A DNA stretch of 59,182 bases from Scytonema tolypothrichoides VB-61278 (GTDB taxonomy: Bacteria; Cyanobacteriota; Cyanobacteriia; Cyanobacteriales; Nostocaceae): contig NZ_JXCA02000016.1 in the NCBI RefSeq assembly GCF_000828085.3, positions 522,425 through 581,606 of the forward strand, in the 5' to 3' direction. Shown one piece after another: positions 16,155 through 49,945 of the stretch; positions within the stretch are counted from its first letter, which is position 1; every line of letters begins with the position of its first letter. The position numbers were made by a program, and so were the translations under genes. The notes below the pieces were generated by a model. The model ran no database searches and was not told the DNA's origin. It saw only the letters and a program-made list of their open reading frames with translations.

Positions 16155-16244
16155 GTTCAGTTATCAGTTATCAGTTATCAGTTATCAGTTATCAGTTACC
16201 AGTTATCAGTTATCAGTTACCAGTTACCAGTTACCAGTTATCAG
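16155..16244. repeat. Short tandemly repeated sequence, heptamer TTATCAG
   Basis: About twelve head-to-tail units of CAGTTAT/CAGTTAC cover this 90-bp segment between the methyltransferase start and the phycobiliprotein-like gene end. Such heptameric repeats are characteristic of filamentous cyanobacterial genomes. Their copy number often varies between strains. Confidence 0.9.
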
Positions 16245-16267: not shown

Positions 16268-16315
16268 ATTCACTGTTTACTGTTCACTGCGGCTGCTACT
16301 GTTCACTGTTCACGG
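16268..16315. repeat. Second short tandem repeat, heptamer TGTTCAC
   Basis: Imperfect units of ACTGTTC/ACTGTTT appear in two runs (16268-16291 and 16298-16315). They reach into the last codons of the phycobiliprotein-like gene, whose stop lies at 16310. The repeat may have altered the C-terminus of that protein. Confidence 0.7.
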
Positions 16316-16891
16316 TTTGAAAAATTTCAGTTGAGTGATCAGATGGTCAAAATAGGGAGCGAGTGCTGCTTGCTCCTCAGAGTCAATCCGTTTCAAACTA
16401 GCAATTTTAATATTTTCCAAACCAACCACCATTGCATCTAAAGGAACTTGTAGTCCTTGATACAATGCATTCATGTAGTTTAGTCCTGTAGAGCTTGTGT
16501 AATCAGTACTCTGACCAGCAATTCCATAAGTGATGCAACGCAGAAAGTGCCAAAAATCACGCCAACAAGCTTCAGCACGTGCTGGTGGGTAAAGACCACC
16601 TCCAGGTTGAGTAATATCAGGGAAAGTTATCAGGACTTTTTCTCTCGCTTCGTTTACGATTTCAGTGACGCGATCGCGCAACAGCCGTGCAACTGGAATA
16701 AATGCTGAGGTTTGGGGAGAGATAGTTTGGATCTGCTGTAAATCTTCATCGGTGAGATATCGCCCTTGATCATCGGCTGCTTGGAACAGCGGAATAATCG
16801 CTGTTGGGTGCGTCGTCTCCCAGCCAGAAAAACTGACAATTCTGGCTTTTTGAATGAGTTCTTTGACTGCTTCACTGAGTTCAGGCGTCAT
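16310..16891 (-). CDS. Phycobilisome (phycobiliprotein-fold) family protein with conserved bilin cysteine
   Basis: The 193-residue protein aligns with alpha/beta phycobiliproteins. Helical segments surround a GGGLYPPARAEACWRDFWHF core, equivalent to the allophycocyanin Y(P)xxRxxACLRD region. The chromophore-attachment Cys (Cys109) and the Asp three residues later (Asp112) are kept, so covalent bilin binding is possible. LNYMNALYQGLQVPLDAM and VVGLENIKIASL match the C-terminal helices. It is too diverged to be a standard rod or core subunit. It is followed by a calycin-type protein and two HEAT-repeat proteins, a grouping that suggests a bilin-binding protein with its own handling factors. Confidence 0.85.
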   Translation of the reverse strand: MTPELSEAVKELIQKARIVSFSGWETTHPTAIIPLFQAADDQGRYLTDEDLQQIQTISPQTSAFIPVARLLRDRVTEIVNEAREKVLITFPDITQPGGGLYPPARAEACWRDFWHFLRCITYGIAGQSTDYTSSTGLNYMNALYQGLQVPLDAMVVGLENIKIASLKRIDSEEQAALAPYFDHLITQLKFFKP

Positions 16892-16950
16892 GTTTTACCG
16901 ATACTTTTTCGCTAACGTTTGCTAACAAATACAATCTTGAAGTTCTTGTA

Positions 16951-17811
16951 CTAACGTATTCGGTGCTCACTCACGAAAGTCAAGCTACTCCACTTCCCTT
17001 GGTCATTATACGCACGAATCATGCGCTGGCGTAAACCGGGCTGAAATAACCAGCCAACTTCCAGAAAGAAAGGGTGTCCTGGTTTTATCTGAGTTGGACA
17101 GGTGGAAGATGCGCCATCGGGTAGCAGTAAAACTTGGTAAGCCAGAGACTCGTAGTCAAAGTTCAGACGGGATCCATTACTATCAGCCGCAATTGTCATC
17201 GTACGCTGGGTTTCCTCTCCCCCCCAGGAAAAATTTTGTACACACTCATTTTGGGAAGTGCGAGTCAGCTTGAGAGTAGTGTCAGTGGTGACAGGTGGGC
17301 GCGAATCTAGATATAAAGTCACAGTAACTCCTTGCCACTCTCCAAGTAAATCTTCCAGAATCAAAGTTGGACGTTCTGGTGCGTTGGTTCCGGCTCGTTG
17401 TTCTCGAACTAACGTCAATCTGTTAAGCTTGCTATTGGAGGAATCAAACTGTTGAATCAGACGCATGCGGCGATCAGAGAAATCACCCCCAATAAAACTG
17501 AACTCAGCTCCAAAGGGAGTACGAGATCCAAAGTAAACTGGACCTTCACAAAAAGCTCCAGTTTCAAAAAATCGCGAGCCGACACTAGCCGCACTGAAGT
17601 CTAGCACTAAATCTTGCGGTTGTAGCTCGTCTGAACCGGGAGTCGGATAGTAGCGACGCAAAACCAGGTGAATGGCTTGATTGTCGTTGACTCCTTCCAG
17701 CGAAATGACGCTTTTGATATCCTCCATAAGTTCTCCCTGGGGTGAGACACGGGTGAATGATCCGTGCCACTCTCCCAGGTTTTGCAATACACAGTCCCAT
17801 TGGGATTTCAT
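16951..17811 (-). CDS. DUF3598 calycin-fold protein, CpcS/CpeS-like
   Basis: The 286-residue protein starts MKSQWDCVLQNLGEWHGSFT. This W-xxLxNLGxWxGSF pattern opens DUF3598 proteins. It contains two lipocalin-like halves: an N-terminal half with DLVLDFSAASVGSRFFE, and a second half starting LILEDLLGEWQGVTVTLY and ending in LFQPGLRQRMIRAYNDQG. The GEWxGxxxT-motif is the calycin entry strand and is also found in CpcS-type bilin lyases. Lying 60 bp upstream of the phycobiliprotein-like gene on the same strand, it is a candidate chromophore carrier or lyase. That role is inference. Confidence 0.8.
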   Translation of the reverse strand: MKSQWDCVLQNLGEWHGSFTRVSPQGELMEDIKSVISLEGVNDNQAIHLVLRRYYPTPGSDELQPQDLVLDFSAASVGSRFFETGAFCEGPVYFGSRTPFGAEFSFIGGDFSDRRMRLIQQFDSSNSKLNRLTLVREQRAGTNAPERPTLILEDLLGEWQGVTVTLYLDSRPPVTTDTTLKLTRTSQNECVQNFSWGGEETQRTMTIAADSNGSRLNFDYESLAYQVLLLPDGASSTCPTQIKPGHPFFLEVGWLFQPGLRQRMIRAYNDQGKWSSLTFVSEHRIR

Positions 17812-17975
17812 ATGAATTTCAACCTGGATTTTTTATCAGAAATTAAATCCCCAACGAAAACTGTCTTTCATTTTGCGAAAAGTTTGCGCGTCCGGGTTTC
17901 CCGGCGCAAAACTTTTCAAGACGAATTTTGAGATTGCGTCGCAACGCTTCCGCAACGCTAGGGGATTTTGAATTG

Positions 17976-18893
17976 TTAATCCCAGTCGTCTTGCTCTGAT
18001 TGTTTCTCTATTTGAGAAATCGCCAACTTGATCACTTGTTGAACCGCTGTTTCGCTTTCTTGCCCTAACGCCGCTTCCAAAGGTTCTAACACTGTACGAT
18101 CGCCAATCTTCATTAATGCCAGTGCTGCTGCTTTGCGGCTTTCCCAATCAGGATGATGCAGTAACAAAATCAGGTTGGCAACAGCTGGTCGATAGGTCAA
18201 GTTGCCCAAGACTGCTGCAGCTTCGCACCGTACACTTGTGTCTGGATCCCCCAAGGCGTTAACGAGAATATGAAATGCTTCCTCTTCGGGGTTTTCTTGG
18301 AGAATTTTGGCGATCGCCCCAATCACAGCAGCCCGAACATCAGGCGATGAGGAGTCAATTTCCTTATAAATATACTCCTTTGCCTGTGCCCCGATAAATG
18401 CCAGCGCCCATGCGGCATGACCCTTGGTATTTTCAGAGGTATTTGAATCCGCTAAAATTTCCAGCAAAGCTGGTACCGCTGCCTCACCAGTCCTCGCAAG
18501 CGCGCCTACTGATGAACCCTGGACAACTGTGTCCTCATCATTCAGGAAAGAGTTTACCAGAACCGGAACTGCTTTTGGATCGGCGATAATTGTCAAAGTT
18601 TTGGCGCTGGCGCGACGCACAACCACATTCGGGTGATGTGCCAATGCTTCCAATAAGAATGGAGTTGCCAACTCACCAATTTGACCGAGTGTTTCCGCAA
18701 CACGCATCCTTACCAAGCCCCGTGAATCTCCCAAAGACTCAATCAAATTTTTCAGGAGTTCGTGATCATTGGGATTGAAAGTGTCCAGATCCATTTGCTC
18801 CTTAACCGCTTCCAGCAAAGCATCGGTGGCATCCTGGGACGGTGGCACTAAATTACCACCCGATTTCGTTTCATAATTGAGCAAATCACTCAT
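17976..18893 (-). CDS. HEAT-repeat protein (E/F-type bilin lyase-like superfamily)
   Basis: The ATG at 18893 is preferred over the TTG six bases upstream. The protein of about 305 residues is built of eight to nine HEAT/PBS-lyase repeats of about 31 residues. Examples are VRMRVAETLGQIGE-ATPFLLEAL, VVVRRASAKTLTIIADPKAVPVLV, and VRCEAAAVLGNLTYRPAVANLI. A polar N-terminal tail of about 45 residues precedes them. This family includes phycobilin lyases (CpcE/F, CpeY/Z) and phycobilisome-disassembly factor NblB. Which of these it resembles most cannot be judged by eye. It is one of four same-strand genes that appear to form an operon ending in the phycobiliprotein-like gene. Confidence 0.85.
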   Translation of the reverse strand: MSDLLNYETKSGGNLVPPSQDATDALLEAVKEQMDLDTFNPNDHELLKNLIESLGDSRGLVRMRVAETLGQIGELATPFLLEALAHHPNVVVRRASAKTLTIIADPKAVPVLVNSFLNDEDTVVQGSSVGALARTGEAAVPALLEILADSNTSENTKGHAAWALAFIGAQAKEYIYKEIDSSSPDVRAAVIGAIAKILQENPEEEAFHILVNALGDPDTSVRCEAAAVLGNLTYRPAVANLILLLHHPDWESRKAAALALMKIGDRTVLEPLEAALGQESETAVQQVIKLAISQIEKQSEQDDWD

Positions 18894-18981
18894 TATCAAA
18901 TACCTATCAAATTCGTACTAACTCTCAAGAAACACAGTTCCTGACTGAAGTTTACGAAGTCGCTTCGCGATGCTCCAGCTC

Positions 18982-19197
18982 TTAGCCGCCCAAAGGGCGA
19001 TCGCGCAATTCTTTAAGCACAGCATCAATTTTGGCAAGTTCCGGCTCAAGATGAGCGAGTGCGGTTGCTTTCATCACTTTAGCCTTTTGCGCTGTTGCTA
19101 GAGTTTGGCTAATCAACCTTTCCCGATATTCTTCAAATTCTGCAATGACTTCGCTCAGTTCTTGTTCTGTTGGCGTGTTTTCTGAAGTTTCAGTCAT
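18982..19197 (-). CDS. Small helical protein, unknown function
   Basis: The 71-residue protein MTETSENTPTEQELSEVIAE.. continues with EFEEYRERLISQTLATAQKAK and EPELAKIDAVLKELR. It is highly charged and almost entirely helical, and probably coiled-coil. I do not recognise a named family. It is 88 bp upstream of the HEAT-repeat gene on the same strand and is the first gene of the presumed phycobiliprotein-like operon. Divergent transcription of a second HEAT gene starts about 100 bp away. Confidence 0.7.
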   Translation of the reverse strand: MTETSENTPTEQELSEVIAEFEEYRERLISQTLATAQKAKVMKATALAHLEPELAKIDAVLKELRDRPLGG

Positions 19198-19315
19198 TTT
19201 GAGCTTTTCCTAAATTTGTATTTATATAAAGTCTACGCTCGATTTTCTCAGATTACGTCACCACCAAGCAAACCTTTTTGATTACAGTGATGGTAAAGTT
19301 GTGCCATATGTTGCT

Positions 19316-19978
19316 ATGGATATTCACGAAATCAAAACTGCTTTAAATAATTCTGATTTTCAATATCGGTTAAAAGCGATCGCTGCCCTAAAAGACTATA
19401 CACCAGAGATAGCCGTTCCCCTACTCACCAGCAAACTTCGTGATTCGGAATTTTTGGTGCGATCGTTCGTTGCTATGGGACTGGGCAAGCAGCAGACTGC
19501 TGAATCCTTCGCTGCCTTGCTGGAGTTAATGAAATTTGACAATACCCCCAATGTCCGGGCAGAGGCTGCGAGTTCTCTTTCTCTGTTTGGCAGAGTCGCT
19601 GCGTCTCATCTGGTTTTTACTTTTTTTCGGGATGATCACTGGTTAGTGCGGCGCAGTATTCTGGCAGTTTTGCTTGATCTGGAGTGTCCTGAGAAATTGT
19701 TTGAAGTTTGCATCGAAGCTTTAGCAGGAGAAGATTCTAGCGTACAGGCAGATGCTATAGATGCGCTTGGTACATTTGCTCTTACAAGTCTTGAGGAACC
19801 CGCTTTGTCTCAGTTGTTGGCGCTGGTTGGTTCAGAGTCTAAACAGATTCGCATACACGTTGTTCACGCGCTGAAGCGGTTTGATCATCCGCAGGCAAAA
19901 GAAGCCCTCAAGCAACTCCGCCAAGACCCTGATCATCAAGTCGTCGCCGCTGCACTAGAAAACTTGCTTCAGCAGTAA
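19316..19978 (+). CDS. HEAT-repeat protein, divergent to the phycobiliprotein-like operon
   Basis: The protein of about 220 residues begins MDIHEIKTALNNSDFQYRLK if the ATG at 19316 is used. An in-frame GTG at 19301 would add five residues. About six HEAT repeats are visible: LKAIAALKDYTPEIAVPLLTSKL, then LVRSFVAMGLGKQQTAESF, VRAEAASSLSLFG, VQADAIDALGTFA and IRIHVVHALKRFDHPQAKEAL. The pattern is that of the PBS-lyase HEAT family. Shared intergenic space with the opposite operon (118 bp) suggests common regulation. Confidence 0.85.
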   Translation: MDIHEIKTALNNSDFQYRLKAIAALKDYTPEIAVPLLTSKLRDSEFLVRSFVAMGLGKQQTAESFAALLELMKFDNTPNVRAEAASSLSLFGRVAASHLVFTFFRDDHWLVRRSILAVLLDLECPEKLFEVCIEALAGEDSSVQADAIDALGTFALTSLEEPALSQLLALVGSESKQIRIHVVHALKRFDHPQAKEALKQLRQDPDHQVVAAALENLLQQ

Positions 19979-20269: not shown

Positions 20270-20470
20270 ATGTCTGACACTCTCCCAGGTCAAATGACGT
20301 GGAAACTCCCAGGGACGACAGATTGTGTGTTGCACCTGCGACACAGTTCATCAGAACCTTGGCGGTACTATAAGGAATTTCCAGAGTATGTTCTACCGGA
20401 TCCACCCCACTTTTCAGAAGGGTATGCCACGTTTGTTGCACTCTTGAAAAAGAAGTGGCAAACAGTTTGA
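20270..20470 (+). CDS. Small conserved-looking cyanobacterial protein, unknown function
   Basis: The ATG at 20270, with AGAGG 8 nt upstream, gives a 66-residue protein MSDTLPGQMTWKLPGTTDCV... It is rich in aromatic residues and prolines (EPWRYYKEFPEYVLPDPPHF) and has no membrane segment. A longer frame starting at 20237 lacks ribosome-binding context. No function can be proposed. Confidence 0.6.
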   Translation: MSDTLPGQMTWKLPGTTDCVLHLRHSSSEPWRYYKEFPEYVLPDPPHFSEGYATFVALLKKKWQTV

Positions 20471-20671: not shown

Positions 20672-22237
20672 TTAAGGGGCATCGCCGGGAGTGTTAAGCG
20701 CAGTTCTGCCGTAGGCAATCGCCAACTGCACTGTAAAAATGGAACCCTCATTTAGCTTACTTTTGACAGAAACAGAACCACCAGAGCGAGATAGCAATAA
20801 TTGTACAATTGGTAAGCCTAAGCCAACACCAGCAGAATCTTCTGTTGTGGTTGGACGTAAGCGATAGAAACGCTCAAAAATTTTAGGAATCTCGCTATCA
20901 GCAATACCAATACCAGTATCGCGAAATTCTAATTGGACATAATCACCCTGAACACGTCCTTGTACCCAAACCTGTCCACCTTTGGAAGTGAACTTAAGGC
21001 TGTTGGAAAGCAAATTAATCACAATCTGCCTTAGTCCACCACTCACACACCAAACAGCAGGAAGTTCAGTTGGTACGGTATAAGCTACCATGATACCTTT
21101 TTCTCGGGCTAGGGGCTGGTAAATACTGACCACTCCGGGCACAACTTCCGAAAGACGTACAACCTCCAAAGGCATCCGTGGTAAATCGCGCTCTAAGTGT
21201 ACCATATCGAAAACTCCAGTAATCAGAGCATTTTGGCGATCGCACTCTTGTTTGAGCATTTGAAAATAACGTTGTCGCTGAGTGATTTTCAAATGAGAGG
21301 AATTTAAAAGACTCAAAGCTGTCTTCATGTGTGTTAGAGGTGCACGTAATTCCTGACAGACATTGCTCAAATATTCGTCTTTGAGTTGCAGGTTCTCATG
21401 GAGTTTTTGATTTTTTTGCTGCATGTTAGCAAGACGCTTTATCGTTCTTTGACGAGAAATTTCATCTTGTTGCTGAAGTTGTTTTGCCAACAGTTGACTG
21501 ATAAGTCTTGGATCTGGTGCTGAGGGACAAATAAAATCAGCAGGCATAAGTAGGGATGACTGTGGTCTGATGGAGGATTTCATAACATCCAATACTTTTT
21601 GAATGATTTCTCCCTCAAAAATCGTCACAGCAAGTAACGGTGCAGTTTTTTTTCTGTTTGCTTTAGCTAAATTGTTTTTACGTGTTCTAAATGGTCTATG
21701 AGCTAGAATCAGACAGCAATACTGCGACGACAACACCATCACAAAGTATTCTCGTTGCAACTGGCTATTTGGCATGCTGTGAACCAGGAAAGATTGGGAA
21801 GATGAGGAGGTAGGGGATGCAGTCCCGCGCCAAGAGTTGTCGCGTGTCTCCTGCACAGGGGCGCTGCTTTGGCGTGGCGTCTGTGTCAACACAGGAGAGT
21901 TTCCTCGTTGAGTGCCAGTAGCGCGCCCCTGCCGTGAGGATGGGGGAGTTTGTTCTCCCTGTACTCCTGTTTTGCTTTCCTGAATGTGCCAAGTACGAAT
22001 GACACCAGACATCGTCAGTTGTTGCTGATAACGGTGAATTTCTGAGTGCCAAATTTTTCCTGGTGGTAGCTTAACCCACAAAGTAGCTGCAATCTGTTGC
22101 TCAATGAGTAAATCAATTTGTGACTTCAATTGTGACAGCAGAGTCGCAGGACTATGAGGCAATAGTTGGGGAAGCGCTTGCATCCCTGAAGCCAACTGCT
22201 GATAAACTGACACATCCTGAGCAAAAGAAAAGTTCAT
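20672..22237 (-). CDS. DICT-domain sensor histidine kinase with degenerate H-box
   Basis: The 521-residue cytoplasmic protein has an N-terminal DICT-like sensory region (about 1-90 and 155-235). A low-complexity Ser/Pro/Thr/Gln-rich insert (about 95-150) splits it. A coiled-coil and a dimerisation region starting at about residue 285 follow. The H-box reads SNVCQELRAPLTHMKT, so Gln295 stands where the phosphorylated His is expected. The catalytic domain is intact: N-box NLLSNSLKFT, G1 DTGIGI, F-box ERFYR and GVGLGLPIV. It may bind ATP without autophosphorylating at the normal site. No response regulator lies next to it. Confidence 0.85.
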   Translation of the reverse strand: MNFSFAQDVSVYQQLASGMQALPQLLPHSPATLLSQLKSQIDLLIEQQIAATLWVKLPPGKIWHSEIHRYQQQLTMSGVIRTWHIQESKTGVQGEQTPPSSRQGRATGTQRGNSPVLTQTPRQSSAPVQETRDNSWRGTASPTSSSSQSFLVHSMPNSQLQREYFVMVLSSQYCCLILAHRPFRTRKNNLAKANRKKTAPLLAVTIFEGEIIQKVLDVMKSSIRPQSSLLMPADFICPSAPDPRLISQLLAKQLQQQDEISRQRTIKRLANMQQKNQKLHENLQLKDEYLSNVCQELRAPLTHMKTALSLLNSSHLKITQRQRYFQMLKQECDRQNALITGVFDMVHLERDLPRMPLEVVRLSEVVPGVVSIYQPLAREKGIMVAYTVPTELPAVWCVSGGLRQIVINLLSNSLKFTSKGGQVWVQGRVQGDYVQLEFRDTGIGIADSEIPKIFERFYRLRPTTTEDSAGVGLGLPIVQLLLSRSGGSVSVKSKLNEGSIFTVQLAIAYGRTALNTPGDAP

Positions 22238-49708: not shown

Positions 49709-49945
49709 CTCTCGTTCCCTGGCTGAGCCAGGGAATGCATAATTATTTCTCGTTTCTTTTTTCTCGTTCCCAGCCTCAGGCTGGGAATGCATAACTTGAG
49801 GCTCTGCCTCAATATAATCATTATAATCATTGGGAGGCAGAGCTTCCCTTTAGGCATTCCCATGCAGAGCATAGGAACCAGAGGGTAATCATTGGGAGGC
49901 AGAGCCTCCTTTTAGGCATTCCTATGCAGAGCATAGGAACGAGAT
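49709..49945. repeat. Cluster of dispersed palindromic repeats
   Basis: Palindromes TTCCCTGGCTGAGCCAGGGAA and TTCCCAGCCTCAGGCTGGGAA are followed by two direct copies, about 60 bp apart, of a unit. The unit contains CATTGGGAGGCAGAGCYTCC, TTTAGGCATTCCYATGCAGA and GCATAGGAAC. They are arranged head to tail between 49827 and 49945. No gene is present. This looks like a REP-type repeat family, possibly stabilising the rpe transcript end. Confidence 0.8.

Follow-up and report, generated by a model that had tools for sequence, protein, structure and literature searches.

An aplA gene and its divergent HEAT-repeat partner in a probable phycoerythrin accessory gene cluster of Scytonema tolypothrichoides VB-61278

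AplA, an allophycocyanin-like phycobiliprotein, is encoded together with two HEAT-repeat proteins, a calycin and a small protein in a compact gene cluster of the cyanobacterium Scytonema tolypothrichoides VB-61278, which we have analysed within a window of 59,182 nucleotides (contig NZ_JXCA02000016.1, positions 522,425 to 581,606; the coordinates given below are those of the window). The aplA gene (16310..16891, minus strand) encodes 193 amino acids, and next to it on the same strand lie the genes of an AplA-linked DUF3598/BFA1_C calycin paralogue (16951..17811, 286 amino acids), of HEAT1 (17976..18893), probably a phycoerythrin beta-subunit lyase of the CpeF/MpeV type, and of SMALL (18982..19197), a protein of 71 amino acids that travels upstream of HEAT1. 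The divergent neighbour of aplA, HEAT2 (19316..19978, plus strand), encodes an NblB-related HEAT protein. Both HEAT proteins carry HEAT_2 and PBS-lyase HEAT repeats; the open reading frame (ORF) of HEAT1 spans 307 amino acids (305 counted from the ATG), and that of HEAT2 spans 225 (220 from the ATG). All five genes were found where the original prediction, made from the letters of this DNA alone, had placed them, and their order fits a putative four-gene unit on the minus strand plus one divergent gene. As detailed below, HEAT2 is a steady partner of aplA across the cyanobacteria, and AplA follows phycoerythrin in the genomes checked.

The 193-residue protein matches the Pfam family Phycobilisome (PF00502) at 173.7 bits, and among solved structures it matches allophycocyanin subunits best, alpha-B first. 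It scores far below the NCBIfam cut-offs of all six subunit models that it matches (77.9 of 270 bits for ApcA and 77.5 of 228 bits for ApcB, for example); as it reaches no cut-off for a named subunit, it appears not to be a canonical phycobilisome subunit. Residue 39 aligns with residue 11 of ApcA, which leaves 28 additional residues at the N-terminus, and the motif ACWRD occupies residues 108-112, giving the bilin site Cys109-Trp-Arg111-Asp112, in which we take Cys109, Arg111 and Asp112 to be Cys84, Arg86 and Asp87 of the consensus numbering. Montgomery and colleagues are said to have described AplA in 2004 from Fremyella diplosiphon as an allophycocyanin-like protein, with an N-terminal extension of 28 residues as its defining feature. 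In a survey of 388 genomes of the class Cyanobacteriia, drawn evenly, a protein search (E up to 1e-25) found AplA in 96; Cys109, Arg111 and Asp112 are invariant in all 96, and Arg105, Phe116 and Arg118 are kept too. One alignment comprised the window protein and 65 others, and the cysteine is also invariant in 110 rows from fetched loci, whose species overlap with the 96-genome set. In a tree of 40 of the 96 AplA rows and 20 canonical subunits, AplA forms one side of a branch with support 100/99, the depth of which is unsure since long branches meet there. Because it recurs in so many genomes with the cysteine invariant throughout, the phycobiliprotein of the locus is not a chance find; and because it combines the 28-residue extension, a clade of its own and the fully kept attachment-site residues, its sequence identifies it as AplA. 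The original prediction had described a diverged phycobiliprotein with a kept bilin site that was no normal rod or core subunit, which the subunit scores and the separate clade bear out, and it had set conservation of Cys109 among orthologues as a test, which every one of the 96 genomes passes; it recognised neither AplA nor the tie to phycoerythrin. Parts of Six et al. 2007 (PMC2246261) treat aplA as a photoreceptor outside the phycobilisome and still call the function of AplA unknown.

The pairing of aplA with HEAT2 is seen at several levels. HEAT2 was found in 104 of the 388 genomes and in 78 of the 96 with AplA, or in 78 of 85 when the 11 picocyanobacteria are left out. Both genes lie on one contig in 61 of these 78 genomes and within 2.5 kb of each other in 52, and the two are divergent in 50 of the 52. 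Of the 80 named loci, 72 reach 3 kb or more upstream of aplA; a divergent HEAT2 gene occurs within 3.5 kb in 56 of these 72. By a hand count of pairs by family label, the divergent pair recurs in 12 families; the Fisher tests on gene pairing, like those on the CpeA association described below, ignore kinship among the genomes. Of the NCBIfam models, HEAT2 scores highest on NblB (NF045915). Its identification as NblB itself was rejected, the score being 98.6 bits for a cut-off of 300, and a gene elsewhere in the same genome passes that cut-off with 361 bits.

The association of AplA with phycoerythrin was followed through CpeA in 56 genomes, which were picked before the CpeA search and with their AplA, HEAT1 and HEAT2 state known. 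CpeA passes its cut-off in all 28 AplA-positive genomes and in just one of the 28 AplA-negative ones. Of the AplA-negative genomes, 24 belong to families that also contain a positive genome, and the other four (G037, G051, G164 and G171) share only the order with one. Within one genus, CpeA was found in 8/8 AplA-positive and 0/8 AplA-negative genomes. HEAT1 occurs in all 28 AplA-positive genomes and in a single AplA-negative one, the CpeA-positive G252, and HEAT2 in 27 of the AplA-positive genomes and in two AplA-negative ones (G252 and the CpeA-negative G022). G252 was picked on purpose as an AplA-negative genome with HEAT1 and HEAT2, and it lends itself to asking what AplA contributes. The aplA gene lies no more than 10 kb from cpeA in 9 of the 28 genomes.

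HEAT1 shares the distribution of CpeA in these 56 genomes without exception, being present in all 29 with CpeA and in none of the 27 without it. In the whole survey it was found in 100 genomes at 1e-50, a threshold at which the window gene is the only match in its own genome; outside the picocyanobacterial family, AplA occurs in 85 genomes and HEAT1 in 85, with both in 75. In three genomes (G334, G375 and G283), HEAT1 stands with cpeB- and cpeA-type, cpeZ-like and cpeY-like genes, and a 79-residue homologue of SMALL lies beside it near cpeBA; in the picocyanobacterium G248, a HEAT1 homologue adjoins a cpeZ-like gene near CpeA and a CpeY-like gene. All four genomes have a CpeA above its cut-off, and G334 has a CpeY above the cut-off as well. 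In G248 the CpeY-like gene reaches 311.6 for a cut-off of 600; the CpeZ labels, and those of CpeY in G375 and G283, were assigned by size, start and place. According to parts of Six et al. 2007 (PMC2246261), cpeZ lies downstream of mpeV in two strains. The G334 protein next to cpeBA finds the window HEAT1 in the latter's own genome at 403 bits as a reciprocal best match, and because the next match reaches only 53 bits, that genome shows no other candidate; its CpeA, CpeB, CpeY, CpeS and CpeT are encoded on another contig than the aplA cluster. Since the match is reciprocal and no other candidate is seen, HEAT1 is probably a phycoerythrin beta lyase of the CpeF/MpeV type, and because it follows phycoerythrin and adjoins cpeBA elsewhere, its most likely substrate is phycoerythrin. 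Parts of a published account (PMC7948978) describe CpeF and MpeV as one family of phycoerythrin beta lyases. HEAT1 and cpeA are no more than 10 kb apart in 10 of the 28 AplA-positive genomes, and in the 78 genomes with both HEAT1 and AplA it lies up to 5 kb from aplA in 14 and up to 20 kb in 34; the mixed neighbourhood of aplA and HEAT1 thus recurs in several lineages. SMALL matched no family over cut-off in Pfam and NCBIfam profile searches; in all 21 named loci where HEAT1 reaches at least 180 bits, it lies on the HEAT1 strand no more than 540 nucleotides away. As a separate observation, G283 holds a second alpha/beta pair of the phycoerythrin-like type immediately next to the CpeF-type gene (locus L130, 9957-11189); of the two pairs in G248, one (locus L125, 6467-7615) groups with it in the tree.

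The calycin matches both Pfam domains of its family, DUF3598_N and BFA1_C, over their full length and over cut-off (195.6 and 182.6 bits), and its nearest solved structure by sequence is 2o62. It was also considered as a bilin lyase of the S/U or T type and rejected, for neither PF09367 nor PF06206 matched at E up to 1, while the CpeS and CpeT of the same genome, as positive controls, score 209.8 and 226.9 bits. Relatives at 1e-30 occur in 259 of the 388 genomes, and the own genome has a second copy (L214). In a tree of 8 linked and 15 unlinked rows, picked by linkage and high score, the copies linked to aplA or HEAT2 form one side of a branch with support 100/100, the unlinked side including the second copies of the own genome and of G089; two of the rows (G077 and L076) are identical, and the linked copies among the 388 genomes amount to at least those counted. 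The calycin gene lies near aplA in 8 of the 80 named loci and has no match in the other 72 as fetched, with flanks that differ in extent; in four Brasilonema and Scytonema loci among the eight (L009, L011, L012 and L013), DUF3598 gave only fragment matches, which were dropped from the tree, and the match to aplA is complete or almost complete. The protein looks like a specialised and dispensable companion of the aplA locus.

In a scan for promoters and terminators, promoter-like sites numbered 7 against 5.9 in shuffled sequences (standard deviation 2.7), which is no excess over the shuffled range, and terminator-like sites numbered 1 against 4.1, none above the shuffled level. The box TTGCACA, which we take to be an RcaC-type motif, occurs between aplA and HEAT2 in 6 of 58 stretches, so that there is no conserved box of this type. 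A heptamer, TCAGTTA, is repeated in 12.6 copies at 16157-16244, between a methyltransferase gene and aplA, and a 62-base unit occurs in two copies matching at 93% at 49824-49944. Downstream of HEAT2 on the same strand lies DN77 (20270..20470), a gene for a 66-residue protein of no known family, which is present in 43 of the 80 named loci, always on the HEAT2 strand, and has matches in 131 of the 388 genomes that fall into two score groups. It was dropped as a candidate member of the phycoerythrin set, since 7 of the 8 CpeA-negative genomes of one genus (g60) carry it, and it probably stands outside that set. A histidine kinase that carries a DICT sensory domain is encoded near the cluster (20672-22237, minus strand); of the fetched loci, only L009, L010 and L011 have strong relatives (86-93%).

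Our preferred reading, which we hold to be probable, is that the aplA gene lies inside a phycoerythrin accessory cluster, in which AplA and HEAT2 would constitute a bilin or light sensor linked to phycoerythrin and HEAT1 would be a phycoerythrin gene. AplA would carry a covalent bilin of some type on Cys109 and would be no antenna subunit, and HEAT2 would bind its globin domain in the way that HEAT proteins of the E/F clan bind phycobiliproteins, either loading AplA with its bilin or reading its bilin-bound or light state. The pair may then inform phycoerythrin production of the supply of bilin or the colour of the light. HEAT1 and SMALL would together put the doubly linked phycoerythrobilin on the beta subunit of phycoerythrin, HEAT1 being in the cluster as a gene for phycoerythrin, and the DUF3598 paralogue linked to aplA may be an optional helper. 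A more specific form, in which AplA and HEAT2 together make up a photosensor or bilin gauge that serves phycoerythrin alone, the phycobiliprotein fold, familiar from the antenna, works as a soluble sensor, HEAT2 controls phycoerythrin genes or phycoerythrin assembly, and the AplA-specific DUF3598 protein is an optional bilin carrier, is offered only tentatively, as a possibility that we ourselves find doubtful.

Several observations weigh against the preferred reading. HEAT2 is missing at the cut-off from 7 of the 85 AplA genomes outside the picocyanobacteria and from all 11 picocyanobacterial ones, HEAT1 is missing at its cut-off from 10 of the former, and 26 genomes match HEAT2 without matching AplA, among them G022, which lacks CpeA. 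Phycoerythrin also occurs without AplA: G252, of the same family, has CpeA, HEAT1 and HEAT2 and no AplA at the cut-off, and according to Six et al. 2007 (PMC2246261) the marine strain WH7805 has phycoerythrin and no aplA. With the own genome and G248 added, CpeA was found in 30 of 30 AplA genomes checked, a partial coverage of the 96. AplA could, furthermore, be a bilin protein that senses nothing. HEAT2, finally, may be CotB-like or may not. In favour of the link to phycoerythrin, the green-light-induced genes of Fremyella include the phycoerythrin genes, and CotB is tied to green-light-induced genes by the title of Balabas et al. 2003 (cited in PMC2327270).

The main rival holds that AplA and an NblB-like HEAT2 serve to disassemble or turn over phycoerythrin or its bilins and are no sensor. 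That NblB is the top NCBIfam model of HEAT2 speaks for it, and the pairing of HEAT2 with a bilin-site protein that tracks phycoerythrin would suit a bilin acceptor; yet a separate gene of the genome passes the NblB cut-off, and nothing in this analysis indicates a role in degradation, so that we regard it as unlikely. The genes might instead merely be carried together on phycoerythrin islands, with no shared mechanism. AplA and HEAT1 do lie on different contigs or more than 20 kb apart in 44 of the 78 genomes with both, and the transfer of pigment clusters is plausible; on the other hand, the spread of the divergent AplA-HEAT2 pair over 12 families and the co-occurrence of the genes even where they are unlinked make mere carriage a decidedly unlikely account. 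The original prediction had assigned the calycin and both HEAT proteins to one bilin protein as a dedicated set, in which they would be lyases or chaperones that load AplA. Part of this stands: a conserved HEAT partner does lie beside the phycobiliprotein, in the form of HEAT2, there is a DUF3598 clade linked with aplA or HEAT2, and HEAT1 adjoins aplA in several lineages, being found upstream on the same strand within 1.1 kb in 8 of the 78 genomes with both (in G223 the gene concerned is a second HEAT1 relative, 40% identical). The inclusion of HEAT1 and of the calycin is not supported, as HEAT1 goes with phycoerythrin and adjoins cpeBA far from aplA in genomes such as G334 and G375, and the calycin belongs to a widespread family, has no CpeS or CpeT match and gives no match or only fragments at most of the named loci; a dedicated chromophorylation set for AplA therefore has, in our judgement, a slim chance.

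Since its description in 2004, no role had been assigned to AplA, and its tie to phycoerythrin in the genomes checked, together with the HEAT2 pair, narrows the question to two genes with a colour read-out. The mixed neighbourhood is not to be read as one machine, for one of its HEAT genes most likely serves phycoerythrin. Among the titles that literature searches listed, none dealt with what AplA does or with AplA and CotB together, and such a paper may exist.

Compared with known systems, the AplA described here resembles that of Fremyella diplosiphon, reportedly described by Montgomery et al. in 2004, and that of marine Synechococcus (Six et al. 2007, PMC2246261) in being allophycocyanin-like, in having the N-terminal extension of 28 residues, in keeping the residues of the bilin site and in being found with phycoerythrin; it differs from these in that aplA adjoins a CpeF-type gene, the gene for a 71-residue protein and a DUF3598 paralogue. 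HEAT1 is like the CpeF/MpeV proteins, to judge from parts of PMC7948978, in being a HEAT-repeat protein that accompanies cpeBA and CpeY- and cpeZ-like genes in phycoerythrin genomes, whereas in S. tolypothrichoides it stands apart from cpeBA, on another contig, and inside the aplA cluster. The calycin shares both full-length Pfam domains with the DUF3598/BFA1 family (PDB 2o62 and 5yvf), and unlike that family at large it falls into a clade of its own, the sampled members of which adjoin aplA or HEAT2. CotB of Fremyella, a HEAT-repeat protein of the NblB-related type, acts on green-light-induced genes according to the title cited in PMC2327270. HEAT2 may be akin to this protein; with NblB it shares the HEAT repeats and differs in score, at 98.6 of the 300 bits.

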